From contig CALUMK010000002.1 in the NCBI GenBank assembly GCA_944321735.1, positions 167,596-231,595 of the forward strand: 64,000 nucleotides of DNA, written 5' to 3'. The notes under the pieces are model-generated. The model worked only from the letters and a program-made list of their open reading frames with translations. It made no database searches and had not been told where the DNA came from. This document shows positions 3,112-64,000 of the stretch, one piece after another. Numbering within the stretch: position 1 is the stretch's first letter; each line of letters opens with the position of its first letter. The DNA is from an uncultured Bacteroidales bacterium (GTDB lineage Bacteria; Bacteroidota; Bacteroidia; Bacteroidales; P3). The position numbers were made by a program, and so were the translations under genes.

Positions 3112-5697
3112 ATGATAGTAAGAACCGGTTTTCGACGGACGCTGATATTGCTCCTTCTCTTGGCAAGTTTCTGCTTGAGACTGTACGGCACGCATCAAAA
3201 GGCTGCAGAATTGATTGTGGAGCATGTTTCCGGTTATACCTACAAGGCTAAGCTCTATACATATACCTTTACGCAGACCGATGTGGACCGGCCTCAGCTC
3301 GAGATTGGCTGGGGAGACGGTACGACCACTATTCTGACCCGTTCCCGGGAAGTGACACTGGATAACGATACGAAGCTGAATTATTATGAAGGGACGCATA
3401 CGTATGCGGGACCAGGGACTTATACATTGTATATGGAAGACCCCAATCGCAATTCCGGGGTGGTCAATGTGCCCAACAGCGTGTTGACATACATGTATAT
3501 TTCGACGACGATTACGATAAGCCCTTGGTTGGGGGAGGGCAATAGCAGCCCTGTCACGACAAGAAGCCCGGTGGACGATATGGCCTGCTTGGGACGTCGT
3601 TACGAGCATAACCCGGCTGCTTATGACCCAGATGGGGACAGCCTTTCGTATCATTTGATACCGTGCCGGGGCGAAGGAGGAGAATCGATACCCGGTTATA
3701 CGTATCCAGCTGCGAGCGACACCTTTATGATTGACCCTTATACCGGCACGCTGGTATGGGATGCCCCGATGGCGCAGGGAGAGTACAATGCGGCGATATT
3801 GATCGAGGAGTGGCGCAATAAAATCAAGATAGGGGATGTGACCAGAGATATGCAGATTATCGTCCGGGCTTGCGAGAATCTCCCTCCTTCGATAGAATGC
3901 GATGAATCCTATTGTGTGACAGCCGGGCAGACTTTGATGTTCCCTGTATGGGTTTTGGATCGAGGACGGAACAGGCTGAAGCTTGAAGTTTCGGGCGAGG
4001 TGATGCAAGGAGGCGTCAGAGCCGGTCTCCAGACGGTTTATTCCGGCGAGGATTCGGCATTTTATTTCTTTTATTGGAATACCTCTCTTTCCGATTCCAG
4101 GGATAAGGAATATATGCTGTATTTGCGGGCTGAAGACGATGGGGATCCGGCTTTGAGTTCGGTCAAGATTGTCAGAGTGAAAGTAATGGCGCCGCCTTCT
4201 GTTTTCGAGGAGCCAAGGATAGAAGAGGATGGGTTTTATCTGACATGGACAGCGAGTGTGAGTCCTCATGCGGCTTCTTACGAGTTGTATCGCCGGGATT
4301 GTTACCGGAAAGAGCCTGTTTACGATTCGTGCCAGGTCGGCATAGGGGATGATACTTACCGGCTGGTGGCGGACTTGCCCTTGGATCAACCTTATTATTT
4401 CGATTCGGACGTGCTGGAAGGACGGGAGTATTGCTATCGGCTGCTGACCCGTTTCCCGGATGGGGATATGAGCAAGCAGTCGGATCCGGTTTGCTTGCAG
4501 TTGCGTAATATACATCCTCTTTTGACCAAGGTCGATGTGCTTTCTACGGATGAAGTGCAAGGACGGATGGCGGTGGAATGGGTTGCGCCGGAGGATTTGG
4601 ATACATCGCGGGAATGGACTTATAGCCTTTATGCAGGGATTTCTCCCGACAGCCTGTTTTTCGAGGCGTCATTTCCTTTTGCCGAAAGGGTCATATACCA
4701 GGATTCCGGTCTGAATACGGTTCGCCATCGTTATTTTTACCGGGTTGCCATGGATTCCGTGCCCGGATTGCAAGCTTCTTCGGTTTATTTGAAGGCGGAA
4801 GGTCTGACGCATCGGATCCGGCTTGACTGGGATTTGGAGCATCCCTGGATGAATTACAGGTATGATGTTTATCGTTACGAAGATTCTGTGGGAGGATTTT
4901 GTTTGATAGGAAGTTCCGAATCATCCTTTTATGATGATACGGAAGTGAAGGTGGACAAAGAATACCGCTATTATGTGGAAGCGGTAGGAGGCTATGGTTC
5001 GCAGGCAATACCTGACACATTGTACAACAGATCGAATATTGCCGGGGCAATGGCTATGGAAGGACTTCCTTGCCAGCCATGGTTGGATTTGGCCAATTCT
5101 TCGTGTTCCCCTTTGTCAAATACCTTGGTTTGGGATTTTGACAGTCTTTTCTTGTTTTCGGGGATTGTCGATACGGCTTGGTCTGCAGCGGAAAGGGACG
5201 AGTGCGAAGCTTCGGTATCCTATTACGAAGTTTTCCGGAAAAACGCCGTGGACATGGATTACGAGTGGCTGGCCACCGTGGAGGATAAAGAATATGTCGA
5301 TAACGATCCGGGTTCTTTGTTTTGTTGGTATTATGTGGTGGCAGTCAACGAGTCGGATATGGCAGGGATGCCCAGCAACGAGGTCTTTGCGGACAATTGG
5401 GATTGTTTTTCATTTGAATTGCCGGATGTGTTTACTCCCAATGGGGATAGCTATAATGAGACTTGGACTGCTATCGACCCCTTGCATATCGATCACTTCC
5501 ATGTCAAAGTTGTCAACCGTTGGGGGGTAACGGTCTTTTCTTCTTCGGATCCGGAATTTTCCTGGAATGGGAAGGTCAACAATACGGGAGCGGACTGCCC
5601 GGACGGTCCCTATTTTTATGTGGCAGAGTTTGAAGTCCGTGCAGAAGGGAAGACGTTTAAGAAGGTTCAGTCTGGGAGTGTTTCCATTTTGAGATAA
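3112..5697 (+). CDS. Secreted multidomain protein with gliding-motility C-terminal (T9SS type B) domain
   Basis: The protein has a signal peptide (LILLLLLASFCLRLYG) and then about 750 residues of repeated beta-sandwich modules, several resembling fibronectin type III or PKD folds (for example around residues 50-110, 360-460 and 550-620). It ends in a gliding-motility-associated C-terminal domain: FTPNGDSYNETW near residue 780, a VVNRWG motif and a WNG motif. In Bacteroidota that domain directs export through the type IX system and attachment at the cell surface. Function beyond a large surface or adhesin-like protein cannot be assigned. A -7-like TAAATTCG at 3100-3107 is so close to the ATG that the message may be nearly leaderless. 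A hairpin repeat array starts exactly at the stop codon. Confidence 0.88.
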   Translation: MIVRTGFRRTLILLLLLASFCLRLYGTHQKAAELIVEHVSGYTYKAKLYTYTFTQTDVDRPQLEIGWGDGTTTILTRSREVTLDNDTKLNYYEGTHTYAGPGTYTLYMEDPNRNSGVVNVPNSVLTYMYISTTITISPWLGEGNSSPVTTRSPVDDMACLGRRYEHNPAAYDPDGDSLSYHLIPCRGEGGESIPGYTYPAASDTFMIDPYTGTLVWDAPMAQGEYNAAILIEEWRNKIKIGDVTRDMQIIVRACENLPPSIECDESYCVTAGQTLMFPVWVLDRGRNRLKLEVSGEVMQGGVRAGLQTVYSGEDSAFYFFYWNTSLSDSRDKEYMLYLRAEDDGDPALSSVKIVRVKVMAPPSVFEEPRIEEDGFYLTWTASVSPHAASYELYRRDCYRKEPVYDSCQVGIGDDTYRLVADLPLDQPYYFDSDVLEGREYCYRLLTRFPDGDMSKQSDPVCLQLRNIHPLLTKVDVLSTDEVQGRMAVEWVAPEDLDTSREWTYSLYAGISPDSLFFEASFPFAERVIYQDSGLNTVRHRYFYRVAMDSVPGLQASSVYLKAEGLTHRIRLDWDLEHPWMNYRYDVYRYEDSVGGFCLIGSSESSFYDDTEVKVDKEYRYYVEAVGGYGSQAIPDTLYNRSNIAGAMAMEGLPCQPWLDLANSSCSPLSNTLVWDFDSLFLFSGIVDTAWSAAERDECEASVSYYEVFRKNAVDMDYEWLATVEDKEYVDNDPGSLFCWYYVVAVNESDMAGMPSNEVFADNWDCFSFELPDVFTPNGDSYNETWTAIDPLHIDHFHVKVVNRWGVTVFSSSDPEFSWNGKVNNTGADCPDGPYFYVAEFEVRAEGKTFKKVQSGSVSILR

Positions 5698-5976
5698 ACG
5701 CATTTATAGCGGCATCTACTTTGTTGCGAGCCTTGTCCAAGTCGGTCACATACGGAAGTATGCTCCCTCCTTGGCCAGCGGCTCGACGCCTCGTAGCTGC
5801 TCGCTATAAATGCGTTTCTCATATTGAGCGGCATCTACTTTGTTGCGAGCCTTGTCCAAGTCGGTCACATACTTGAGTATGCTCCCTCCTTGGCCAGCGG
5901 CTCGACGCCTCGTAGCTGCTCGCTATAAATGCGTTTCTCATATTGAGCGGCATCTACTTTGTTGCGAGCCTTGTCC
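5691..5976 (+). repeat. Tandem hairpin-repeat array (two full copies, one truncated; family A)
   Basis: The 119-base unit repeats with starts at 5708, 5827 and 5946. Left boxes (ATCTACTTTGTTGCG) are at 5714, 5833 and 5952; right boxes (GACGCCTCGTAGCT) at 5785 and 5904. The apical stem CATAC/GTATG is at 5749-5753 and 5758-5762. Inner stems are GAGCC/GGCTC and CCAAG/CTTGG. The outer arm 5691-5710 contains the stop codon of the preceding gene, and its near-complement lies at 5803-5820. The third copy breaks off after the left box and about ten further bases. The two full copies are almost identical, differing mainly in the apical loop. Confidence 0.9.
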
Positions 5977-5998
5977 GGCAGAGTCCCCTATGGATTTA

Positions 5999-7510
5999 TC
6001 AAAAGACCGAATAGATGAAAGGTTCGCTGCTGGCATGTTCTTTGAAGAGAATTAAAAGGACAGCGATAGCCAGGGTAATCAGGAACTGGAGCCAGCGGGG
6101 AGATTGGCAGAAAAGGCGTTCTGATTTTCTTTTGAGACGTTCCGGCACAAGAATGACAAGGATGAATGCCAAAAGCAGCAAGGCAAGGCAAACGTGCTGC
6201 TGGCAGATAAGAAGCGGCCTTGACCAATCCATGGGGCTGAACAGGCCGAGAAACATCTCGGCTGCGTTCTGCAAGTTGGGCGAGCGGAACAGGATCCAGC
6301 TGAGACTCACCAATTGGAATGTTATGAACCATCCAAGGAACCGCCAGAGGCGGGATTTCTCTGCTTGATGCTGCCATCCGGTAGCTTTTTCGAGGCATAA
6401 TAAAAGACCGTGAATCCCACCCCAGAGCAAGAATCCCATTCCAGCGCCATGCCAGAATCCGGCCACAAGCATGGTGGTCATCAAAGCTATGCCGCAACGT
6501 GCCATGCCATGGCGATTGCCTCCGAGTGGAATATAGAGGTAGTCCCGGAACCAGCTGGAGAGCGAGATATGCCAACGTCTCCAGAACGAGGTCAAGGAAG
6601 AGGCTTTGTACGGTGTCCGGAAATTCTCGGGAAGCTGGAACCCAAAGAGGGCGGCAATACCGATGGCAATATCGGTATAACCCGAAAAATCGCAATAAAT
6701 CCGGAAGCTGAACGCATAGACAGCCATCCATTTTTCTATCGGGCTGAATGATTCCGGTTCGGCGAAGACCGGGGCAGAGACATGCAAGGATATATAATCG
6801 GCAAATACGATTTTTTTGACCAGTCCCATCAGAATCAGGAAAAGTGCGGAAGAAAATTCCTTGACACTGAGCATATAGTGTTTTTGCAATTGAGGCATGA
6901 ATTGCCCGGCTCGGACAATAGGGCCGGCAACCAACTGCGGGAAGAAACAAAAGTAGAAGCTGAAATCGCCCAGGTTCTTGGTGGCGTGGATTTGGCCTCG
7001 CTTGAGGTCGATGAGATAGCTTATTGCCTGGAAAGTGAAGAAAGACAGTCCAATAGGGGGTATGAGCTTTTCTATGTGGAAAATTCCGTTTTCCATCGGG
7101 TTGGATAGGAAGGAAGCGGAAAAATAGTCGATGGCTGGCAGGCCGGTATCGAACAGGGCATTGAAAACCTGTGTGAAGAATGCGCTGTATTTAAAGATGC
7201 CAAGGATGATGAGATTGGCCATGATACCGAGTGCCATCCAGTTTTTCTTTTGCTTCTGCGGCGCGGTATCGATTTGGATCCCGATGCCGAAGTTCAGGAT
7301 GATGGAGAGCAGGAGGATAAAGATGAAATAGCCTCCTGTTTTGTAATAAAAGAAAAAGCTGCAAGCCAGCAGGAATGTGTTGCGGATTTGCGGTTTTTTG
7401 TAGCAGAGGCAGAATCCCGCCAGCGTGACTAGCAGGAATAACCAGAAATCCAGGCTGGTGAACAGGAAACTGCTTTGCGTATGGGTCAGGAACTGCAACA
7501 AATAATCCAT
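5999..7510 (-). CDS. MBOAT family membrane-bound O-acyltransferase (AlgI-like)
   Basis: This is a polytopic membrane protein of 503 residues with about 10-12 hydrophobic segments and family motifs: PQLVAGPIVR near residue 190, a WRRWHISLSSWFRDYLYIPL block near residue 315, and the predicted catalytic histidine in GFWHGAG followed by WGGIHG. AlgI-type MBOAT proteins move acyl (often acetyl) groups across the membrane onto extracellular polysaccharide or peptidoglycan. It is the last gene of a minus-strand operon, starting 1 base after the stop of an SGNH-like periplasmic protein, which is the usual partner type. The acceptor substrate cannot be read from the sequence. Confidence 0.92.
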   Translation of the reverse strand: MDYLLQFLTHTQSSFLFTSLDFWLFLLVTLAGFCLCYKKPQIRNTFLLACSFFFYYKTGGYFIFILLLSIILNFGIGIQIDTAPQKQKKNWMALGIMANLIILGIFKYSAFFTQVFNALFDTGLPAIDYFSASFLSNPMENGIFHIEKLIPPIGLSFFTFQAISYLIDLKRGQIHATKNLGDFSFYFCFFPQLVAGPIVRAGQFMPQLQKHYMLSVKEFSSALFLILMGLVKKIVFADYISLHVSAPVFAEPESFSPIEKWMAVYAFSFRIYCDFSGYTDIAIGIAALFGFQLPENFRTPYKASSLTSFWRRWHISLSSWFRDYLYIPLGGNRHGMARCGIALMTTMLVAGFWHGAGMGFLLWGGIHGLLLCLEKATGWQHQAEKSRLWRFLGWFITFQLVSLSWILFRSPNLQNAAEMFLGLFSPMDWSRPLLICQQHVCLALLLLAFILVILVPERLKRKSERLFCQSPRWLQFLITLAIAVLLILFKEHASSEPFIYSVF

Positions 7511-13558: not shown

Positions 13559-15400
13559 ATGATGCAGAAGAATAAATTCAAGGCTTGCTTGTCCTGCGCG
13601 CTTCTTTTGGGCAGTTTCTTTTCGTTGTCGTTTTTGCAGGCGCAGACACCTCGTCCGGCCAATCCGGAATCGAACCCAGAAGTAAAGGAATACCCCAAGA
13701 ACCATCCCGACGTGGTGGACAAGAAGATGGCCGGACTGTTGCAGCTGATCCGCTTCGCATACGTGGAAGAGGTGGACATGGCTCCGATAGTGGAAAAGGG
13801 GGTGGTCACGATGCTGGAGGAACTGGATCCCCATTCGGCCTATATCTCGGCCAAGGACTTGCAGAAGATGAACGAGCCCTTGGTGGGCAATTTCGACGGC
13901 ATCGGCGTTTCGTTCCAGCCCAACAACGACAGCATCGTGATTATCGAGGTGATAGCCGGAGGGCCTTCGTCCAAGGTGGGTCTGCTGGCCGGGGACAAGA
14001 TCGTGACGATAGACACGATGAGCGCCACCGGCAAGAACGCCAACCGGGATTTCGTATTCAAGCATCTGCGAGGCAAGAAAGGCACCAAGGTGAATGTGGG
14101 CATCAAGCGTCAAGGCGAGCCGGAAATTCTGCATTTCGAGATTATCCGGGACAAGATACCAATCAACAGCGTCAATACCTATTTCATGGTTGACAAGGAA
14201 AACGGCTATATCATGCTGACGCGCTTTGCCCGTACCAGCGTGGAGGAGGTGCGCGATGCCTTGAAAGATCTTAAATCGCAGGGAATGAAGAACTTGATTT
14301 TAGACTTGCGAGGCAATTCGGGAGGCTATCTGGATGTGGCGGTGGATCTGGCCGACGAATTCCTGCCTAAGGACGAGCTGGTTGTCTATATGGAGGGCAA
14401 GGCGCAGCCTAAGGAACCTTTCTATGCTACCAAGAACGGTTTCTTCACCAAAGGCCGTGTGGTGGTGATGGTGGACGAGGGCTCGGCATCGGCTTCCGAG
14501 ATTCTTTCCGGAGCTTTGCAGGATTGGGACAGAGCCATCATAGTGGGGCGGCGAACCTTTGGCAAGGGCTTGGTGCAGAGACCCTTCGGGCTTTCGGACG
14601 GATCCAATGTCCGCTTGACGATAGCCCGTTACTACACGCCTTCGGGTCGTTGCATCCAGAAACCTTACAAGGATGGCATGGAAGCCTATTATAAGGATAT
14701 CATGAACCGTTACCGTCATGGGGAAATGCTCAATCCGGATTCGATCAACCTGCCGGATTCCTTACGTTACCAGACGGCCGGGGGACGGGTTGTTTACGGT
14801 GGCGGCGGCATCATGCCCGATGTGTTCGTGGCGGTCGATACCCAGCGGGCCAGCGACTATTATATGGCTTTGCGGGCCAAGAACCTGATGAACCGCTTTG
14901 TCCTGGATCGTCTGGATGGTCAGAGGGAGCAATATTTGGCGGAATATCCCGATTTTGAGCATTTCTACGAGAATTTCCGGATGGACGAGGCTTTCATGCA
15001 GGAATTCTACGATTACGCAGCCGAACACGGGGTTCCCTATACGAATTTCAAGAAGGCGCAGGCGGGCCAGTTTTTGCAGGAGTTGATTAAGGCCATGCAG
15101 TCGGATTCGGCTTTGGACAAGGCCGTATCGTATGAGGATTATATGTCGAGGGTGCTTTGGGCGCAGGATAGCATGCAGTCGTATTTGATGGAAAAGGCCA
15201 GGGCGGAGGATGCCCGGCAGAAAGCCTATGCAGCGAAGTCGGACAAGTTCTTGCGGGCGCAGCTCAAGGCCATGTTCGCCAATAATCTTTATGGGGCGGA
15301 ATACTATTACCAAGTGACCAAGGATGTGGACGATGCCTTTGCCCGTGCGTTGGAAGTGTTGAAGGACAGGAAGTTGTTTGATGAACTCGGCATCCGGTAA
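13559..15400 (+). CDS. S41 family C-terminal processing peptidase with PDZ domain
   Basis: This periplasmic serine protease has a signal peptide (LLLGSFFSLSFLQAQ), a CTP-type N-terminal segment (MLEELDPHSAYIS), a PDZ domain at about residues 105-190 (GIGVSFQPNNDSIVI, VGLLAGDKIV) and the peptidase S41 core. The catalytic Ser is in EGSASASEI near residue 310 and the Lys in RRTFGKGLVQ. At 613 residues it has a long helical C-terminal extension compared with short CtpA enzymes, as is common in Bacteroidota. ATG 13559 is the first in-frame start and is followed directly by a second-position Met. A family A hairpin element starts at its stop codon. Confidence 0.93.
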   Translation: MMQKNKFKACLSCALLLGSFFSLSFLQAQTPRPANPESNPEVKEYPKNHPDVVDKKMAGLLQLIRFAYVEEVDMAPIVEKGVVTMLEELDPHSAYISAKDLQKMNEPLVGNFDGIGVSFQPNNDSIVIIEVIAGGPSSKVGLLAGDKIVTIDTMSATGKNANRDFVFKHLRGKKGTKVNVGIKRQGEPEILHFEIIRDKIPINSVNTYFMVDKENGYIMLTRFARTSVEEVRDALKDLKSQGMKNLILDLRGNSGGYLDVAVDLADEFLPKDELVVYMEGKAQPKEPFYATKNGFFTKGRVVVMVDEGSASASEILSGALQDWDRAIIVGRRTFGKGLVQRPFGLSDGSNVRLTIARYYTPSGRCIQKPYKDGMEAYYKDIMNRYRHGEMLNPDSINLPDSLRYQTAGGRVVYGGGGIMPDVFVAVDTQRASDYYMALRAKNLMNRFVLDRLDGQREQYLAEYPDFEHFYENFRMDEAFMQEFYDYAAEHGVPYTNFKKAQAGQFLQELIKAMQSDSALDKAVSYEDYMSRVLWAQDSMQSYLMEKARAEDARQKAYAAKSDKFLRAQLKAMFANNLYGAEYYYQVTKDVDDAFARALEVLKDRKLFDELGIR

Positions 15401-15526
15401 GGCGATGTGTCATAATGAGCAATCTGCTTTGTTGCTATCGAGTCTCGAACTCAGTCACGTACCAAAGTACGCTCCTTCGTTCTCGCTCTCAGCGCCTTGC
15501 ATCTTACTCACTCTGACACACCGCCT
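15398..15526 (+). repeat. Family A hairpin element after the S41 peptidase gene
   Basis: The left box ATCTGCTTTGTTGC is at 15422-15435 and the right box GCGCCTTGCATCT at 15492-15504. The apical stem CGTAC/GTACG is at 15458-15462 and 15467-15471. The outer arms 15400-15419 and 15507-15526 match at 17 of 20 positions, and the left arm begins at the stop codon. The inner stem is weaker than in other copies (GAG/CTC and GAAC/GTTC). Confidence 0.8.
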
Positions 15527-15588
15527 GAGATTTGTTTCAAATCCCTATTTTGATACACCCTCATAGGAAGAGACGAAGGCTACGGGCA

Positions 15589-16599: not shown

Positions 16600-16690
16600 T
16601 CCCTGTTTTCCGGTGGGGCAAGGCAGAAGGGTCTATGGAAAACATTTGGAATTGAATAAAATAAATAATCATAACTTAAAACTTACTGCC

Positions 16691-18025
16691 ATGGACGTAA
16701 AAAAAATCTTGGCTGATCTGAAGGAAAAACATCCTGACGAACCTTTGTTCCTCCAAGCTGTAGAGGAAGTGTTGTATTCCATCAAGGATTATGTGGAAGC
16801 ACATCCCAAGTATGAACAACACAAGATTATCGAACGTATGGTTGAACCGGACCGTATCTTCACTTTCCGTGTAGAATGGGTTGACGACAAGGGCGAAATC
16901 CAAGTCAACACCGGTTACCGTGTACAATTCAACAACGCGATTGGACCTTACAAAGGCGGTCTGCGTTTCCACCCCTCCGTACGTTTGGATACCCTCAAGT
17001 TCCTGGGCTTCGAACAGACATTCAAGAACAGCTTGACCACATTGCCTATGGGCGGTGGCAAGGGTGGTTCCGACTTCAACGCAAAAGGTCGTTCCGACAA
17101 TGAAATCATGCGTTTCTGCCAGGCTTTCATGATGGAACTCCAGAAATACATCGGACCTGAAACCGACGTTCCCGCTGGCGATATAGGTGTTGGCGGCCGC
17201 GAAATCGGTTACATGTACGGCATGTACAAGAAACTGCGTCGTGAAAACACCGGCGTTCTGACCGGCAAGGGTGCTGGCTGGGGTGGTTCCATCCTGCGTC
17301 CCGAAGCTACCGGTTTCGGTGCTGTTTACTTCGTAGAACACATGCTGAAGGCTCACAACATGGACATCAAGGGCAAGACCGTAGCCATCTCCGGTTTCGG
17401 TAATGTGGCTTGGGGTGCTGTTACCAAAGCTACCCAGCTGGGTGCCAAGGTTGTGACCATTTCCGGTCCTGACGGTTATGTTTACGATCCGGAAGGCTTC
17501 AACCAGGAAAAGATCAACTACATGTTGGAACTGCGTGCCAGCAACAACGACGTTGTGGCTCCTTTCGCCGACAAGTTCAAGAGCGCTACTTTCTTCGCTG
17601 GCAAGAAGCCTTGGGAACAGAAAGTGGATATCGCCATGCCTTGCGCTACCCAGAACGAACTCCGTCTGGAAGATGCAAAGCAACTGATCGCCAACAAGGT
17701 TACCTTGGTTGCCGAAGTTTCGAACATGGGTTGCCATGCTGATGCCGTGAACGAATTCATCAAGACCAAGACCATCTTTGCTCCTGGCAAGGCTGTCAAC
17801 GCCGGTGGTGTTGCCGTTTCCGGTCTTGAAATGAGCCAGAATGCTGAAAAGCTGCACTGGACAGGTGAAGAAGTTGACCAGAAGCTGCACCAGATCATGT
17901 CGAGCATCCACGAAAACTGCATCAAGTACGGTAAGGAAGGCGACTACGTTAACTACGTTAAGGGTGCCAACATTGCCGGCTTTATCAAGGTGGCTGACTC
18001 TATGATTGAACAAGGCGTCTGCTAA
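16691..18025 (+). CDS. gdhA: Hexameric glutamate dehydrogenase, NADP type
   Basis: The enzyme interconverts 2-oxoglutarate plus ammonium and glutamate and is a main ammonium assimilation route in gut Bacteroidales. The protein of 444 residues shows the family motifs FRVEWVDDKGEIQVNTGYRV, YKGGLRFHPSV, the substrate-binding Lys in LPMGGGKGGSDF, PAGDIGVGGREIGYM and the Rossmann motif SGFGNVAWGA. ATG 16691 matches the usual start; the longer frame from 16613 would include the leader. Codon choice is strongly biased (CGT, GGT, C-ending codons) compared with neighbours, as in a highly expressed gene. A family A hairpin begins immediately after the stop. Confidence 0.97.
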   Translation: MDVKKILADLKEKHPDEPLFLQAVEEVLYSIKDYVEAHPKYEQHKIIERMVEPDRIFTFRVEWVDDKGEIQVNTGYRVQFNNAIGPYKGGLRFHPSVRLDTLKFLGFEQTFKNSLTTLPMGGGKGGSDFNAKGRSDNEIMRFCQAFMMELQKYIGPETDVPAGDIGVGGREIGYMYGMYKKLRRENTGVLTGKGAGWGGSILRPEATGFGAVYFVEHMLKAHNMDIKGKTVAISGFGNVAWGAVTKATQLGAKVVTISGPDGYVYDPEGFNQEKINYMLELRASNNDVVAPFADKFKSATFFAGKKPWEQKVDIAMPCATQNELRLEDAKQLIANKVTLVAEVSNMGCHADAVNEFIKTKTIFAPGKAVNAGGVAVSGLEMSQNAEKLHWTGEEVDQKLHQIMSSIHENCIKYGKEGDYVNYVKGANIAGFIKVADSMIEQGVC

Positions 18026-18096
18026 TTTTGGAATGTGATAATGCGTGATTTGCTGCGTTGCGCGCCTTGCATCTCACGCATTCTGACATTCCAAAA
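18026..18096 (+). repeat. Compact family A element (core absent) after gdhA
   Basis: Outer arms 18026-18047 and 18075-18096 match at 20 of 22 positions and start right after the stop codon. Between them are only the left box ATTTGCTGCGTTGCG (18048-18062) and the right box CGCCTTGCATCT (18063-18074); inner stem and apex are missing. Confidence 0.8.
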
Positions 18097-18106
18097 GAAA
18101 GGGGTT

Positions 18107-18270
18107 ATCTGCGGCGTTGCCTGCGGGTCTCGGACTCGGTCACGAACAGCAGTGCAAGCCGAATGCAGAGACAGAGTTTACTCTGGCTATGCTGAGGCGC
18201 AGCCTGCTCTCGCTGCGGAGCAGCAACAAAGTACGCTCCCGTCGTCCTCGCCCTTGGCGGCCTTGCATCT
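18107..18270 (+). repeat. Interrupted family A element
   Basis: A left box variant ATCTGCGGCGTTGCC is at 18107-18121 and a right box GCGGCCTTGCATCT at 18257-18270. The apical motif is split: GGTCACGAAC on the left and AAAGTACGCTCC on the right are separated by about 60 bases of other sequence, which includes TCGCTGCGGAGCAGCAAC, an 18-mer also found after dnaK near 36292. It looks like an insertion or rearrangement inside a standard copy. Confidence 0.65.
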
Positions 18271-18298
18271 TACCCATTCTAACGCCCCGACTTCAAAA

Positions 18299-28450: not shown

Positions 28451-29278
28451 ATGTTTGGGATGAATAAGAAACGGTTTCCTGAAAACTGGCAGGAAGATTA
28501 CGAGCGGATGCTGCCGACTGCTTTGCGGGCAGCGGGATGGTATATACAAAAGTATTTCAAGGATAAGAACGTAGGATTCCCAGAGTTTCGATGGATACAG
28601 ACAACTTTGCAAAAGCCTGCATTTCAACATCTATGCTTTGCCTATAGAGGGAATTTGTATAGTGTTTTGATTGAGATAAAAACCCGGAGAGGTATTTTTT
28701 TGCTTGAACAAGATAAGCAGAATCAACTGCGGGAATGTCGACAGAATGATTTGATAGCATGTACGATACCGTTGTTAGGCGATGATTTTTCCCCTTTGGT
28801 ATCAGATGTGCATCTTCTATCTACAGATACGAGGAAACCAATAGAGGTTTCGGAAAAAGCTGAGCAAGTGAAAATGTCCCCGTGGGAAATCCATAGTCTG
28901 GGAGTCCAAGTTGTCAGGGATCAATTAGTGCGGGATGGCATGCGGATTCTGAGTTATTGCGATGTGTTGCAGATAGACCCACAGATATGGTTCGAGAAAG
29001 CAAATGGCGAGAAATGTTATGTCATGGTGGAGACTTTGGTGGGAACGCTTTCCGAGGATGCTTGTAAAAAATTGAATCAAAATTTTCTGCTGAAGTTCAT
29101 AGATTATGGAGGATATTATGCGAAAGTGAGAGTAGTAGACCCTGAAAATCCAACTTGTCGGACACTTTTTCGCGATCAATCTTATTTTATAGATTACAGA
29201 GGGCTGCAGTACATAGAAAAGAGAGCGGCCAAGGTAGGAACTGAAAATAAGGATATTTTTATTATTCGTGAGTGCTAG
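28451..29278 (+). CDS. Hypothetical protein with possible VRR-NUC-like N-terminal motif
   Basis: I do not recognise the full protein of about 275 residues. Residues 60-100 read VLIEIKTRRGIFLLEQDKQN and continue with LRECRQ, a pattern resembling the VRR-NUC nuclease core (E-x-K, then G and Q at set distances), though the upstream PD element is not seen. The rest is mixed alpha/beta without membrane segments. Base composition is clearly more A+T-rich than that of its neighbours, which suggests transfer. The frame opens at TTG 28442; ATG 28451 or 28460 are more likely starts. It ends exactly where a hairpin element begins. Confidence 0.65.
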   Translation: MFGMNKKRFPENWQEDYERMLPTALRAAGWYIQKYFKDKNVGFPEFRWIQTTLQKPAFQHLCFAYRGNLYSVLIEIKTRRGIFLLEQDKQNQLRECRQNDLIACTIPLLGDDFSPLVSDVHLLSTDTRKPIEVSEKAEQVKMSPWEIHSLGVQVVRDQLVRDGMRILSYCDVLQIDPQIWFEKANGEKCYVMVETLVGTLSEDACKKLNQNFLLKFIDYGGYYAKVRVVDPENPTCRTLFRDQSYFIDYRGLQYIEKRAAKVGTENKDIFIIREC

Positions 29279-29407
29279 TGTAAAAGCCATTCTGTGGGGT
29301 AGATACGAGGCGTCGATTTGATGTCCAAGCCGGGAGTGTACTGATGTACATGACCGGCTTGGACGAGAATCGCAACGAAGCAGATGCCCCGCAGAATGCC
29401 TTTTACA
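29279..29407 (-). repeat. Family A hairpin element filling a convergent gene gap
   Basis: Read on the minus strand, it begins at the stop of the saccharopine dehydrogenase-family gene. Outer arms 29279-29299 and 29387-29407 match at 19 of 21. Left box (minus) is at 29385-29371, right box at 29314-29301. The inner stem GTCCAAGCCGG/CCGGCTTGGAC (29323-29333 and 29354-29364) is perfect, and the apex is TGTAC/GTACA (29337-29341 and 29346-29350). The right arm contains the TAA stop at 29403-29405, and the left arm starts at the base after the other gene's stop. Confidence 0.9.
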
Positions 29408-30611
29408 GTTCCAAATCTCCGTTGATGATTTCCTCCCACGGCAACCCCTCCGGCCCGAGCACTTGCAGGAACGGATCGGGGTCGAACTCTTCCACGTTGA
29501 AGACCCCGGGTTTCTTCCAGAGTCCTTTGAGGAACATCATCGAGCCGACGGTGGCCGGAACGCCGGTGGTGTAGCTTACGCCTTGGGTGCCGGTTTCCTT
29601 GTAGGCTATCTCGTGGCTGCAGTTGTTGAAGATGTAATAGGTCTTTTCCTTGCCGTCCTTGATGCCTCGGATGCGGCAGCCGATGGAAGTCCAGCCTTTG
29701 TAGTTGGCGCCCAGTTCGCCCGGATTGGGCAGGACGGCTTTCAGGAACTGGATGGGTACGATTTTATGCCCTTCGTAGTCGATGGGGTCGATGCGGGCCA
29801 TGCCGATATCCTGGATTACCCGGAGATGGGTCAGGTATTCCTGGCCGAAGGTCATCCAGAAGCGGGCGCGTTTGAGGGTGGGATAATGTTTTACCAAGGA
29901 TTCCAGTTCTTCGTGGTACATCAGGTAGGATTCCTTGGGTCCGATATGCGGGTAGTTGAGCGCCTTGTGGACGCTGAGCGGGTCGGTTTCGTGCCACTGG
30001 CCGTCTTCCCAGTATTTGCCGCGCTGGGTGATTTCGCGGATGTTGATTTCGGGGTTGAAGTTGGTGGCGAAAGCCTTGCCGTGGTCGCCGGCGTTGCAGT
30101 CTACGATATCCAAGTAGCGGATTTCATCGAAATGGTGCTTGGCGGCGTAGGCGGTGAAGACGCTGGTCACGCCCGGGTCGAAGCCGCAGCCGAGGATGGC
30201 GGTCAGTCCGGCTTCCTTGAAGCGGTCGTGGTAGGCCCATTGCCAGCTGTACTGGTATTTGGCTTCGTCCAAGGGTTCGTAGTTGGCGGTATCCAGGTAA
30301 TTGGTCCCGGTGGCTAAGCAGGCATCCATGATATGGAGATCCTGGTAGGGAAGGGCCACATTGATGACCAGTTCGGGTTTGAATTTTTCCATCAGGGCGG
30401 TCAGTTCGGGGACGTTGTCGGCATCCACCTTGGCCGATTCCCATTGGGCTTTTTTCAAGCCGCGCTGTTCCAAGGACTTGATGATGGCATCGCATTTGGA
30501 CTGGGTCCGGGAGGCAATCATTACCTCTGAAAAGATTTCGGGGTGTGAGGCCACTTTGTGGGCGACCACGGTGGCCACTCCACCGGCACCGATAATCATG
30601 ACTCTGCTCAT
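29403..30611 (-). CDS. Saccharopine dehydrogenase family protein, probable carboxynorspermidine/carboxyspermidine dehydrogenase
   Basis: The protein has an N-terminal Rossmann motif VMIIGAGGVATVVAHK, the family segments NVALPYQDLHIMDACLATGTNYLDTANYE (split across residues 84-112) and ILGCGFDPGVTSVFTAYA, and a C-terminal domain with YTTGVPATVGSMM. Its length (402) and these motifs match the bacterial carboxynorspermidine synthase group, which makes carboxynorspermidine or carboxyspermidine from aspartate semialdehyde and a diamine by reductive condensation. The partner decarboxylase is not in the window. A lysine-pathway role is a less likely alternative. A promoter with a perfect palindrome lies upstream. 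Confidence 0.88.
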   Translation of the reverse strand: MSRVMIIGAGGVATVVAHKVASHPEIFSEVMIASRTQSKCDAIIKSLEQRGLKKAQWESAKVDADNVPELTALMEKFKPELVINVALPYQDLHIMDACLATGTNYLDTANYEPLDEAKYQYSWQWAYHDRFKEAGLTAILGCGFDPGVTSVFTAYAAKHHFDEIRYLDIVDCNAGDHGKAFATNFNPEINIREITQRGKYWEDGQWHETDPLSVHKALNYPHIGPKESYLMYHEELESLVKHYPTLKRARFWMTFGQEYLTHLRVIQDIGMARIDPIDYEGHKIVPIQFLKAVLPNPGELGANYKGWTSIGCRIRGIKDGKEKTYYIFNNCSHEIAYKETGTQGVSYTTGVPATVGSMMFLKGLWKKPGVFNVEEFDPDPFLQVLGPEGLPWEEIINGDLEL

Positions 30612-38010: not shown

Positions 38011-38256
38011 ATGGATGCAAAAGAAGTGGAAGCCAAGGCGGAAAAGGCCATTCAGGATAAAATTGCACCGGCCTTGGAGCGGACTTGTGCGGCTACGGCT
38101 CTATTTTACGGAATGGAAGACGGCAAGGCCAAGGTAGGATTGCGGACGCCTTGCGGCAATTGCCCTCGGGCGCATGCCACTATCAAGCAGAGCGTGGAGG
38201 TGGCGTTGAGGACGTTGGTGCCGGAGGTGCAAGGGGTTATTCCCTTCTACCTGTAA
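38011..38256 (+). CDS. Stand-alone NifU C-terminal domain protein
   Basis: The 81-residue protein corresponds to the NifU-type Fe-S scaffold domain. The CxxC is in LRTPCGNCPRAHATIKQSVE, followed by LVPEVQGVIPF. In most homologues the CxxC context is GxCxGCPSS; here it is PCGNCPRA, so it belongs to a divergent subgroup. No other Fe-S assembly genes are near. A family A element begins at its stop. Confidence 0.82.
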   Translation: MDAKEVEAKAEKAIQDKIAPALERTCAATALFYGMEDGKAKVGLRTPCGNCPRAHATIKQSVEVALRTLVPEVQGVIPFYL

Positions 38257-38310
38257 AAAAAACGCGATTCTGGCGGCATCTGCTTCGTTGCGAAGCTCAT
38301 CCAGCTCGGC
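38254..38310 (+). repeat. Truncated family A element after the NifU-like gene
   Basis: The sequence from the stop codon runs into the left box ATCTGCTTCGTTGCG at 38278-38292 and about 18 bases beyond. No right box, apex or complementary outer arm follows. The nadD stop on the other strand is at 38342. Confidence 0.65.
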
Positions 38311-44924: not shown

Positions 44925-45046
44925 AAAAAGAATGTAAAAATCCGGAATGGAAACCGTGAAGCTGTTTTATTATTGAGTAAGAAAATTATTTTGCTGTTCC
45001 ATAATCACGACGCGAAGCCGAAGCCGAACCGGAGTTTGCTTATTGG

Positions 45047-45174
45047 AAAAAAGTGATTTAGAGAGATGGGATGCGAGGCATCGGAACGAAAGAGAGCCGG
45101 GGAGCGTACTTGTGTACGTGACCCGGCTCTCTGAGTTTCGTAACGAAGCAGACCGCTCTCTAAATCACTTTTTT
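45047..45174 (-). repeat. Family A hairpin element after the M13 peptidase gene
   Basis: Outer arms 45047-45065 and 45156-45174 are perfectly complementary over 19 bp and the right arm overlaps the peptidase stop codon. Left box (minus) is at 45153-45139, right box near 45083-45070. The inner stem AGAGAGCCGGG/CCCGGCTCTCT (45091-45101 and 45122-45132) and the apex CGTAC/GTACG (45105-45109 and 45114-45118) are perfect. Poly-A/T ends make it a good bidirectional terminator as well. Confidence 0.92.
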
Positions 45175-47206
45175 ACCAGATGTGGGCTCGCTTGGTGGCC
45201 TCCAACCACATCCCATCCCCCTCTTCAATGCCAAACGCTTCCAAGAAAGCGTCCACATGCGGCAGCGTGCCGTTTACCCGCCATTTGCCAAGCGAGTGAA
45301 CGTCGAGCATCGTGAGGCGTTCAATTTCTTGGTCGCGGATGTTGCTGGCCCAAAGCGTGGCGTAAGACAAGAAGAAGCGCTGGGCTGGCGTGAAACCGTC
45401 GATTTCGCCTACCGGGTTTTCTTTCAAAGCCTTTTGCAGGGCCGCATAGGAAATATTCAGACCGCCGTTGTCAGCGATGTTTTCGCCCAAGGTCAGTTCC
45501 CCATTGGCATGGATGCCAGGCAGAACCTCGATTTTGTTGAAGTGGTCAACCAGCAATTGGGCGCGAGCCTCGAAGTTCTTGGCATCTTCGGCCGTCCACC
45601 AATCGTTCAGGTTGCCTTCCTTGTCGTAGAGACGGCCCTTGTCGTCAAAGCCGTGGGTCAGTTCGTGGGCGATAACTACGCCGATGCCGCCGTAATTGAT
45701 GGCATCATCGCCGGTGGCATAGAAGAAAGGAGGTTGCAGGATACCAGCCGGGAAGCAAATCTCATTGGTGGTAGGATTGTAGTAGGCATTGACCGTCTGC
45801 GGGGTCATGTGCCATTCGCTGCGATCCACCGGTTTGTCCAATTTGGAAAGCATGTATTGGGTTTCGAAAGCGGCATAGCGTTTCACATTGGCCCAGTAGG
45901 AATCGTCCTTGATTTCCAGGCCTGAGAAGTCGCGCCATTTGTCGGGATAGCCTACTTTTACCAAGATGGCATCCAATTTTTCCTGCCCTTTGGCCTTGGT
46001 CTCATCGCTCATCCAGGTATTGGCCGCCATGCGTTCGCCCATGGCAAGACGGACGTTTTCAACCAATTTCAAGATACGTTCCTTGGCGGCGGCCGGGAAA
46101 TACTTCTCTACATACATCTTGCCTACCGGTTCGCCCAGGATGCCGTTCACCGAACTTACGCTGCGTTTCCAGCGGGGTTTCATTTCCGTCTGTCCCGACA
46201 TGGTGCGTCCGTAGAAGTCGAAATTGGCTTCCACAAAGGCATCGCTCAGATAGGAAGAGGCGCTGCTAATCAGGTTCCATTCGTAGTAGGCTTTGATATC
46301 ATCCAAGTCGGCTTTGGCGAACAATTGCGCCATGCCTTTCATGAAGTCCATCTGGCCTGCCGAAAGTTCTTTTACTTCATGGTTGGGAGAAATGGCTTTG
46401 ATATAGGATTTCCAGTCGAATCCGGGGATCTTTTTTTGCAGTTCGTCCACGCTCATTTTGTTGTAGGACAGGTGCGGGTCACGCAATGACACCTTGTCCA
46501 TCTGCAATTTTGCCAGAGCCGTTTCCATCTTCAGGACCTGTTCCATCTTGGCTTTGGCTTCGTTTTCCGAAAAGCCGCAAAGCTGGAACATGCGTTGTAC
46601 GTGAGCTTTGTAGGCATCCAGGATGGGCTTGTGCTCTTCTTTCAGATAGTAGTCCCTGTCAGGAAGCCCGGTACCGGCTTGGTAAAGTTGAAAGAGGTTG
46701 GCCGTGCTGTTGCCAGGGTCGGAGCTGACATAGAAAGCGAAGAACGGGCTGGAAGTGGTCAGGTGCATCTGGACCAGCATGTCGAATGCGTCCTTTTTGT
46801 CTTTCATGCCGGCAATCGCGGCCAAGTCTTCCTTGATGGGGCTGTATCCGTCGGCGTTCAGCTTGGTCGAGTCCATGGCCACATTGAACAAAGTCCCTAT
46901 TTTGAGCGCATCGCCGCTTTCATTGGCGGTATTGGCTGCCAGGCCTTCAATCAGCGTGCGAAGCTGCTCCTGGTTGTCTTCGGCCAGTTTGTCGAATGAG
47001 CCGTAACGGGAATATTCCCCTGTCAGCGGATGGGCTTTCATCCAGCCCCCGCAGGCATACTGGTAGAAATCGGTTTTAGGATTGACCGAAGTGTCTAAAT
47101 TGGCCAAATCCAGAGTCTGAGGCTTTGAATCCACGTTTGAGTTTGATTTGCAAGATGTTCCAATAATGGCCAACGCCACTAAAGGAACAAAGATGACTTT
47201 TTTCAT
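45173..47206 (-). CDS. pepO: M13 family metallopeptidase (neprilysin-like lipoprotein)
   Basis: This zinc endopeptidase of 677 residues has a lipoprotein signal (LVALAIIGTSC, Cys 19), the M13 N-terminal domain, the zinc-binding helix IAHELTHGFDDKGRLYD and the downstream zinc ligand in LGENIADNGGL. NAYYNPTTNEICFPAGILQP is the substrate-binding edge strand. It is probably located on the periplasmic side or cell surface and degrades peptides. It forms a single-gene unit and its stop codon lies within the outer arm of a hairpin repeat. Confidence 0.95.
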   Translation of the reverse strand: MKKVIFVPLVALAIIGTSCKSNSNVDSKPQTLDLANLDTSVNPKTDFYQYACGGWMKAHPLTGEYSRYGSFDKLAEDNQEQLRTLIEGLAANTANESGDALKIGTLFNVAMDSTKLNADGYSPIKEDLAAIAGMKDKKDAFDMLVQMHLTTSSPFFAFYVSSDPGNSTANLFQLYQAGTGLPDRDYYLKEEHKPILDAYKAHVQRMFQLCGFSENEAKAKMEQVLKMETALAKLQMDKVSLRDPHLSYNKMSVDELQKKIPGFDWKSYIKAISPNHEVKELSAGQMDFMKGMAQLFAKADLDDIKAYYEWNLISSASSYLSDAFVEANFDFYGRTMSGQTEMKPRWKRSVSSVNGILGEPVGKMYVEKYFPAAAKERILKLVENVRLAMGERMAANTWMSDETKAKGQEKLDAILVKVGYPDKWRDFSGLEIKDDSYWANVKRYAAFETQYMLSKLDKPVDRSEWHMTPQTVNAYYNPTTNEICFPAGILQPPFFYATGDDAINYGGIGVVIAHELTHGFDDKGRLYDKEGNLNDWWTAEDAKNFEARAQLLVDHFNKIEVLPGIHANGELTLGENIADNGGLNISYAALQKALKENPVGEIDGFTPAQRFFLSYATLWASNIRDQEIERLTMLDVHSLGKWRVNGTLPHVDAFLEAFGIEEGDGMWLEATKRAHIW

Positions 47207-63744: not shown

Positions 63745-63769
63745 GCTATTGTCTTTTAGGAGATTCGGT

Positions 63770-64000
63770 CGGCTCGACCGAGGAGAAGAGGCGAAAAATC
63801 CTCACGAAAAAAGGGAGAAAGAAAAGCGGGAAGCTGGAGCGTCAAAAAAGCAAGCATGTCTGAGCGCAGGCGCAGCCAAGCGAGTTCTTGCTTTTAGCGG
63901 AATTACCTGCTTGTCGTTGGATGCCGCCGGCTCGACCGAGGAGAAGAGGCGAAAAATCCTCACGAAAAAAGGGAGAAAGAAAAGCGGGAAGCTGGAGCGT
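63770..64000. repeat. Two 73-base direct repeats flanking a hairpin
   Basis: Identical 73-base units lie at 63770-63842 and 63928-64000 (158 bases apart); the second runs to the window edge. Between them is a hairpin with arms AAAAAGCAAG/CTTGCTTTT (63845-63854 and 63887-63895) around TGTCTGAGCGCAGG and CCAAGCGAG, a REP-like arrangement. It differs from family A. More units may follow beyond the window. Confidence 0.9.

Follow-up and report, generated by a model that had tools for sequence, protein, structure and literature searches.

The window analysed here, a 64-kb stretch of DNA from a Bacteroidales gut bacterium taken as a whole, contains a hairpin at positions 29277..29407 (minus strand) whose conserved boxes recur elsewhere with stems that differ from copy to copy yet stay paired. 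What kind of element holds its boxes fixed while its stems change, and what accounts for its location in the genome? We consider it probable that this is a dispersed non-autonomous mobile element of the ERIC superfamily, tolerated or used as a 3'-UTR hairpin.

Anatomy, copies and folding of the hairpin

The element is a hairpin of ~130 bp made up of copy-specific outer inverted arms of about 16–22 bp, two conserved boxes and a core. Box 1 (CATCTGCTTCGTTGCG, variants CTGCGTTGC) stands opposite box 2 (GACGCCTCGTATCT, variant CGCCTTGCATCT), and the inner stem inside the boxes is different in most copies. The apex runs in the order GG-TCA, a 5-bp stem, ~4 loose bases, the returning stem and CTC-CC. 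In consensus folds, the conserved letters lie at a pair of 3x3 internal loops, one in the boxes (TTC/CTC) and one below the apex (TCA/CTC); on the complementary strand both loops are purine-rich, and G-A pairs could form there. The earlier note on this DNA had described compensating stems, two boxes and an apical GGTCA-stem-loop-stem-CTCC, and we found all of these in the sequence as reported. Its statement that the outer stems share no sequence did not hold in full, as the arms form two loose classes that drift with compensation (about AAAACGnATTTnTAnnGG and GGCGTGTGATAAtGGG; class A arms about TAAAACGnATTTnTAnnGG, class B arms about GGCGTGTGATAAtGGGC). Class A arms have an A-run and a T-run at their ends. 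In one class B subfamily the unit is longer, and its far end (GATACACC) shows partial complementarity to the left end in the manner of an insertion-sequence terminal repeat.

A covariance model built from 19 aligned copies with the structure assigned by hand (R1) gave five matches in the window. The left box gave 15 matches at up to three mismatches, compared with 1.96 expected, and the right box by itself was weak (9 matches against 4.09 expected, with 3/100 shuffles reaching as many). The earlier note had listed seven copies, of which those at 5.7, 15.4, 29.3 and 45.1 kb are full-length; the rest of the list required revision. The element under study (29277..29407; class A arms; R1 112.8 bits; site comparison) has its left end at the stop codon of the minus-strand gene 29403-30611, and the full-length class A copy at 45044..45175 (minus strand; 125.1 bits; site comparison) has its left end at the stop codon of the minus-strand gene 45173-47206. 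The 5.7-kb copy turned out to be a plus-strand tandem. Its first unit (5692..5823; full-length, class A arms; 129.6 bits) has its left end at the stop codon of the called gene 3112-5697 and is followed by a second, recognised from repeats, in which most of the left arm is replaced (5811..5942; G000:C2:173406-173537, 109.5 bits), and then by the left half alone of a third at about 5939..5999 (direct repeat D1, left box at 5952). The class B copy at 15399..15559 (plus strand; 85.8 bits), which belongs to the CTATCGAG subfamily, consists of a hairpin at 15399-15529 and a 3' tail ending in GATACACC, with partial complementarity to the left end; this left end is at the stop codon of the gene 13559-15400. 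At 18026..18098 (plus strand; 39.3 bits) lies a shortened copy without a core, its left end at the stop codon of the gene 16613-18025. The copy listed at 18107 has an enlarged apex, with ~85–90 additional bases and a nested extra hairpin in the apical loop; it occupies 18100..18295 on the plus strand, with approximate ends placed from the sequence and repeats D4 and D9, and gave no R1 match. The one listed at 38254 is a half copy (38254..38303, plus strand) with the left arm and left box but no right half, so the right box claimed for it is missing; the corresponding stretch of a relative (G011) gave two tandem matches.

Core-less or shortened derivatives recurred (L080, L293, L295, L297 and L319), and at L319 (G000:C27 near 2659) a unit of ~70 bp without a core has its left arm fused directly to a right arm and tail. 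The extra apical-loop bases (GCAGTGCAAGCCGAGTGCAGAG...GCAGCAACAA and variants), present at window positions 18100-18295 and in L001, L025, L300, L304 and L318, look like a nested insert of their own kind. The window's end (63762-64000) holds two direct repeats of 81 bases, 96% identical, with a start-to-start distance of 158 bases.

In the window's own genome (2,714,796 bases), R1 gave at least 107 matches at E <=0.01, some of them partial; the number is a lower bound because 150 of 748 candidates were scored. Seventy loci were taken with their flanks, and 69 of these were aligned, yielding 84 matches and 76 distinct rows. Covariation was assessed by shuffles and slides. Among the 76 distinct copies, whose alignment was fitted to the model and is hence biased towards structure, standard pairs occupied 91.0% of 3259 pair cells, compared with 62.0% when partners were shuffled and 32–49% when they were slid. 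The same alignment had 989 double-change cells (327.5 shuffled), and both sides had changed in 40 of 44 pairs (33.7 shuffled). The unfitted alignment of 19 copies had 82.0% of its cells paired, compared with 65.8% after shuffling and 37–47% after sliding, with 138 double-change cells against 51.6. When the arm ends were examined in 72 of the 76 copies (those dropped were short or too close to a locus end), pairing ended abruptly 2–3 nt beyond the modelled ends. The expectation of many genome-wide copies with covarying stems was thus borne out, and the data are compatible with recognition of a folded strand, whether RNA or single-stranded DNA. Covariation alone is no proof of selection for folding, because the exchange of cores between arms makes part of the differences between copies.

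Turnover of sites and exchange of modules

Comparison of copies at the same and at different loci separated the behaviour of the core from that of the arms. Forty-one copy pairs had flanks at least 85% identical, and nine of these had cores less than 80% identical; three of the nine kept their arms (identity 0.84–0.94) and six differed in both core and arms, three of the six being one 29-kb site in different genomes. The 79 pairs at unrelated loci with a core identity of at least 0.9 had a mean arm identity of 0.59, compared with 0.55 for 7874 other pairs and 0.49 for shuffled arms (copies shorter than 120 nt were dropped, and a few weak reverse-strand matches are included). Near-identical cores with dissimilar arms indicate that core and arms are nearly independent modules, and at arm identities of 0.55–0.59 against 0.49 shuffled, a terminal inverted repeat common to all copies, such as defines ERIC, was not found. 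We suggest that recombination in the conserved boxes swaps cores between copies, with the arms staying at their locus, and that a second process, re-insertion at favoured stop codons, would operate besides.

The element comes and goes within the genus. At the 29-kb stop codon, followed in 11 genomes, one element was present in G000, G011 and G004, none in six, another element of class B followed by a class A remnant in G001, and a left half in G009. The 45-kb element was also present in G001 and absent from nine other readable genomes, the site in G008 being cut by a contig end. In G011, the L082 site and the apparent empty sites of L048 and L099 proved to contain internally deleted copies. 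Element-free sites for L086 (in G011, G004 and G009), L099 (in G009), and L093 and L103 (in G004) could not be cleanly aligned on both sides, and no target duplication was readable at these sites. At the L086 site of G011, ~24 other bases occupied the element's place and included an unrelated short hairpin (TTCCGGATTGTTCCGGAA). We also considered that pre-existing terminator hairpins might be the targets, their stems turning into the outer arms. At G000:C1:435256-435421, two elements are fused head to head; G011 keeps two separate inverted copies there, so the fusion reflects deletion of the intervening stretch, and a template switch was rejected for this case.

A mutational process, either template switching at hairpins or gene conversion between copies, might generate the compensating stems in the place of selection for folding. 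We think this possible, though on the unlikely side. Orthologous sites with left flanks 94–99% identical carry swapped cores, or wholly different yet well-paired arms, and internal deletions at the boxes are recurrent, as such a process would predict. It accounts poorly for the outer helix, in which 91.2% of cells are paired despite little arm sequence in common between copies, and a blind process would not preserve the boxes and apical feet that recur across phyla.

Placement at stop codons and RNA genes

Neighbouring genes were called with a crude codon-score finder. Of the 76 copies, 49 had the left end within -8..+3 of a sense stop codon and 57 within -20..+15, and no right end (0/76) lay within -8..+3 of an opposite-strand stop. 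With random intergenic TA sites and random orientation, ~4.4 stop-flush copies would be expected (69 copies with both neighbours called). The 49 stops comprised 33 TAA, 12 TAG and 4 TGA, compared with 24, 7 and 16 among window genes (n = 47), so that TGA was rarer at the elements (4/49 vs 16/47, Fisher p = 0.0023). The scarcity of TGA together with stop-flush left ends agrees with insertion into the TA of stop codons, with the first base of the arm restoring the stop. A TA was mirror-placed at both ends in 23 of the same 72 copies used for the arm ends, compared with a permuted mean of 6.0 and maximum of 12 (200 permutations), a count that arm pairing itself inflates. The stop codons at the 29-kb and 45-kb sites are natural and also occur in species without the element. 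We picture a transposase acting in trans that would insert the element at TA dinucleotides; insertion at a stop codon would be harmless because the arm's first base (A or G) restores the stop.

Placement in the sense orientation alone and flush with stop codons suggests that the RNA form matters at 3' ends. Once transcribed, the hairpin may act as a 3'-UTR element in RNA end formation, processing or stability, which would keep it in the sense orientation. A 2024 review reports that, in Yersinia, an ERIC at a gene's 3' end unmasks an RNase E site and raises mRNA degradation (PMC10969869). Ordinary terminators followed stop-flush elements and control stops at rates that did not differ significantly (7 of 46 and 14 of 57; p = 0.33), compared with 71 of 1400 for random stretches.

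The same placement would be expected of a non-mobile cellular cis-acting RNA, such as a 3' processing signal or a large terminator, which would have arisen at many genes and have its folding kept by selection. The A-run and T-run at the class A arm ends would suit such an RNA, as would the A-stem-T hairpin, judged by eye from the folds, that follows the same stop codon at 29 and 45 kb in several element-free species. Near-identical cores at unrelated loci with different arms argue against it, as do presence and absence within one genus, tandem and nested copies, and kinship with a known mobile element, ERIC. We regard a cellular RNA of this kind as improbable and continue to favour a mobile element tolerated, or used, at gene ends.

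For copies in other taxa, we compared sense stops within -12..+20 of the left end with antisense stops at the right end. Left stops outnumbered right stops in other Bacteroidota (9 vs 2 of 28), in Verrucomicrobia (10 vs 2 of 24) and in others (4 vs 0 of 12); enterobacterial copies, picked by the apex pattern, had no stop-codon bias (3/15 left, 4/15 right). Reportedly, De Gregorio (J Bacteriol, 2005) described a TA duplication for ERIC and Yersinia copies at stop codons in one orientation. In Bacillales, a sense stop stood at the left end in 1/17 and an antisense stop at the right end in 0/17. In 14 of 17 Bacillales loci examined for RNA genes, the left end adjoined (-2..+4) the 5' end of an opposite-strand 16S, 5S or tRNA gene. 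The exceptions were L168 (at 8), L136 (at 45) and L154 (partial match only); the count leaves out L196, L214, L222 and L226, and in L122, L168 and L176 no second copy adjoins an RNA gene. In L122, L125, L158, L163, L176, L151, L179 and L195 of this order, the element lies antisense, 3–4 nt from the 5S rRNA 5' end.

Kinship with ERIC and comparison with known systems

The earlier note knew of no described element with this layout. The apex, however, is that of ERIC, and a second covariance model, made from copies of the window's genome only (R2), brought out the match in both boxes, the apex and the long-hairpin layout. R2 matched the ERIC in a 2-kb E. coli stretch at 31.1 bits, keeping box 1, the apex and box 2 in register, and when it was aligned with the ERIC of K-12 and E2865 the apical GTCA-stem-loop-stem-CTCC corresponded, as did both boxes; sequence identity was confined to these short boxes and the apex. 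Four 50-kb stretches of K-12 (200 kb in all), one of them picked for its cus genes, gave three R2 matches up to E 10, all of them repeats. The ERIC scored 31.1 bits (E 0.00037), and the other two matches were copies of a second dispersed intergenic repeat of K-12 (L315:43651-43776, minus strand; L314:7692-7816, plus strand) at 26.3 and 23.9 bits (E 0.0044 and 0.015). This second repeat has the apex TCACGTAC-loop-GTACGCTCC in common with the window elements and gave matches in 5375 of 5426 E. coli genomes, with a median of five places per genome.

Matches extended well beyond the host. With at most 55 candidates scored in each genome, matches appeared in 11 of the genus's 13 genomes (between 1 and at least 55 per genome; G008 and G012 had none) and in 7 of 48 relatives outside the genus (1 to 9 each). 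An R2 scan of the phylum, an undercount with 11 candidates scored per genome, found at least 16 of 296 genomes, namely that of the window and 15 from a single other family (f42). Scanning a species-genome collection for the apex GTCACGTACNNNNGTACGCTCC gave at least 115 stretches. R2 was run on 80 of these, with 111 matches at E <=1, some of the apex alone, and on 22 of the other 35, with 29 matches at E <=0.01 and at least one on every locus of the 22. Full-length matches among these came from Bacteroidota, Verrucomicrobiota, Lentisphaerae, Bacillales, enterobacteria, Deltaproteobacteria, Clostridiaceae and others, under taxon names that may be wrong where the relatives are metagenome bins. 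Several of the full-length matches were second copies outside the pattern selection, and on Verrucomicrobia R2 reached up to 74 bits.

Because the search pattern itself picks the apex, the flanks were tested alone. By a simple motif, both box cores were found near the apex in 13/24 Bacteroidota, 13/20 Bacillales, 3/14 enterobacterial, 1/11 Verrucomicrobia, 2/11 other and 11/34 unlisted apices, against 0.03–0.1 expected per group in shuffled flanks. Judged from sequence, Bacillales and Bacteroidota have good support for homology, which by this box motif is thinner in the other groups. One strict pattern gave no match in viral contigs. Rfam at gathering score returned one tRNA and nothing else from the window, and the elements in L054, L092, L075, L171 and L122 had no match up to E 0.1. 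A known Rfam family was accordingly rejected for the elements searched, and the Rfam match that the earlier note had named as evidence against itself did not appear among them.

Sequence likeness suggests that the window element is a relative of ERIC and that ERIC itself belongs, as a single branch, to a far wider bacterial family of small mobile elements. The open-licence full-text literature yielded no report of ERIC outside Gammaproteobacteria, and the wide distribution of ERIC-like elements is likely to be new. More tentatively, and with rather less confidence than we would need to call it likely, ERIC may be a branch of a pan-bacterial superfamily in which the core module, with its two pyrimidine 3x3 internal loops, moves or recombines independently of the arms and the left end lies flush with functional borders, namely sense stops in Bacteroidota and Verrucomicrobiota and antisense rRNA or tRNA 5' ends in Bacillales. 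Relatives in several phyla, exchanged arms and cores, and a strict border position would amount to many independent natural experiments on the core's role. We know of no enzyme that mobilises ERIC and of no deep origin for it; the cross-phylum relatives offer a route to the enzyme by co-occurrence, and if the pan-bacterial reading is true, an enzyme recognising the folded core would represent a new type of mobiliser.

Among known systems, REP/REPIN sequences mobilised by a Y1 (RAYT) transposase that recognises a single-stranded hairpin are likewise small, palindromic, dispersed and intergenic, and the many intergenic copies of a hairpin with asymmetric conserved feet would suit such a system. 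The window element is much longer, and the Y1/RAYT transposase proposed in the earlier note was absent: Y1_Tnp (PF01797) was found in 0/13 genomes of the genus, 11 of which carry the element, though the same search was positive in 26/61 genomes overall and in 5/14 control genomes including E. coli. We regard a REPIN/RAYT-like system as very unlikely. An integron attC-like recombination site would also have fixed boxes between variable stems and act as a folded single strand. Copies here are mostly single and scattered at gene ends with no cassette array apparent, and the attC core motif was not spotted by eye; this identity seems to us the least credible of all.

RUP, Correia/NEMIS and other bacterial MITEs, TA-flanked by description, are likewise inverted repeats that fold when transcribed, and differ from the window element in their fixed terminal repeats (PMC2229807). 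A RUP-type MITE served in trans by an IS630-type transposase was rejected, as DDE_3 (PF13358) was not found in the window's own genome (completeness 94.67%).

ERIC remains the closest relative. It was first described in 1990–91 and is ~127 bp, a single long hairpin with terminal inverted repeats, a target duplication and TA at its termini (PMC2229807). The 2024 review places it in Enterobacteriaceae and Vibrionaceae (PMC10969869). The window element shares with ERIC the one long hairpin, the apex GTCA-5 bp-loop-5 bp-CTCC and both alignable boxes. It differs in that ERIC has one conserved terminal repeat, whereas here the arms are copy-specific and of two classes; in that core and arms assort nearly independently; in a host from the Bacteroidales, to which the records nearest to the window belong, instead of the Gammaproteobacteria; and in a stop-codon placement far stronger than in the 15 enteric copies examined. 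According to PMC2267715, V. cholerae ERIC is ~20 bp shorter because its terminal repeats have eroded, which agrees with the arms being the loose part of the element.
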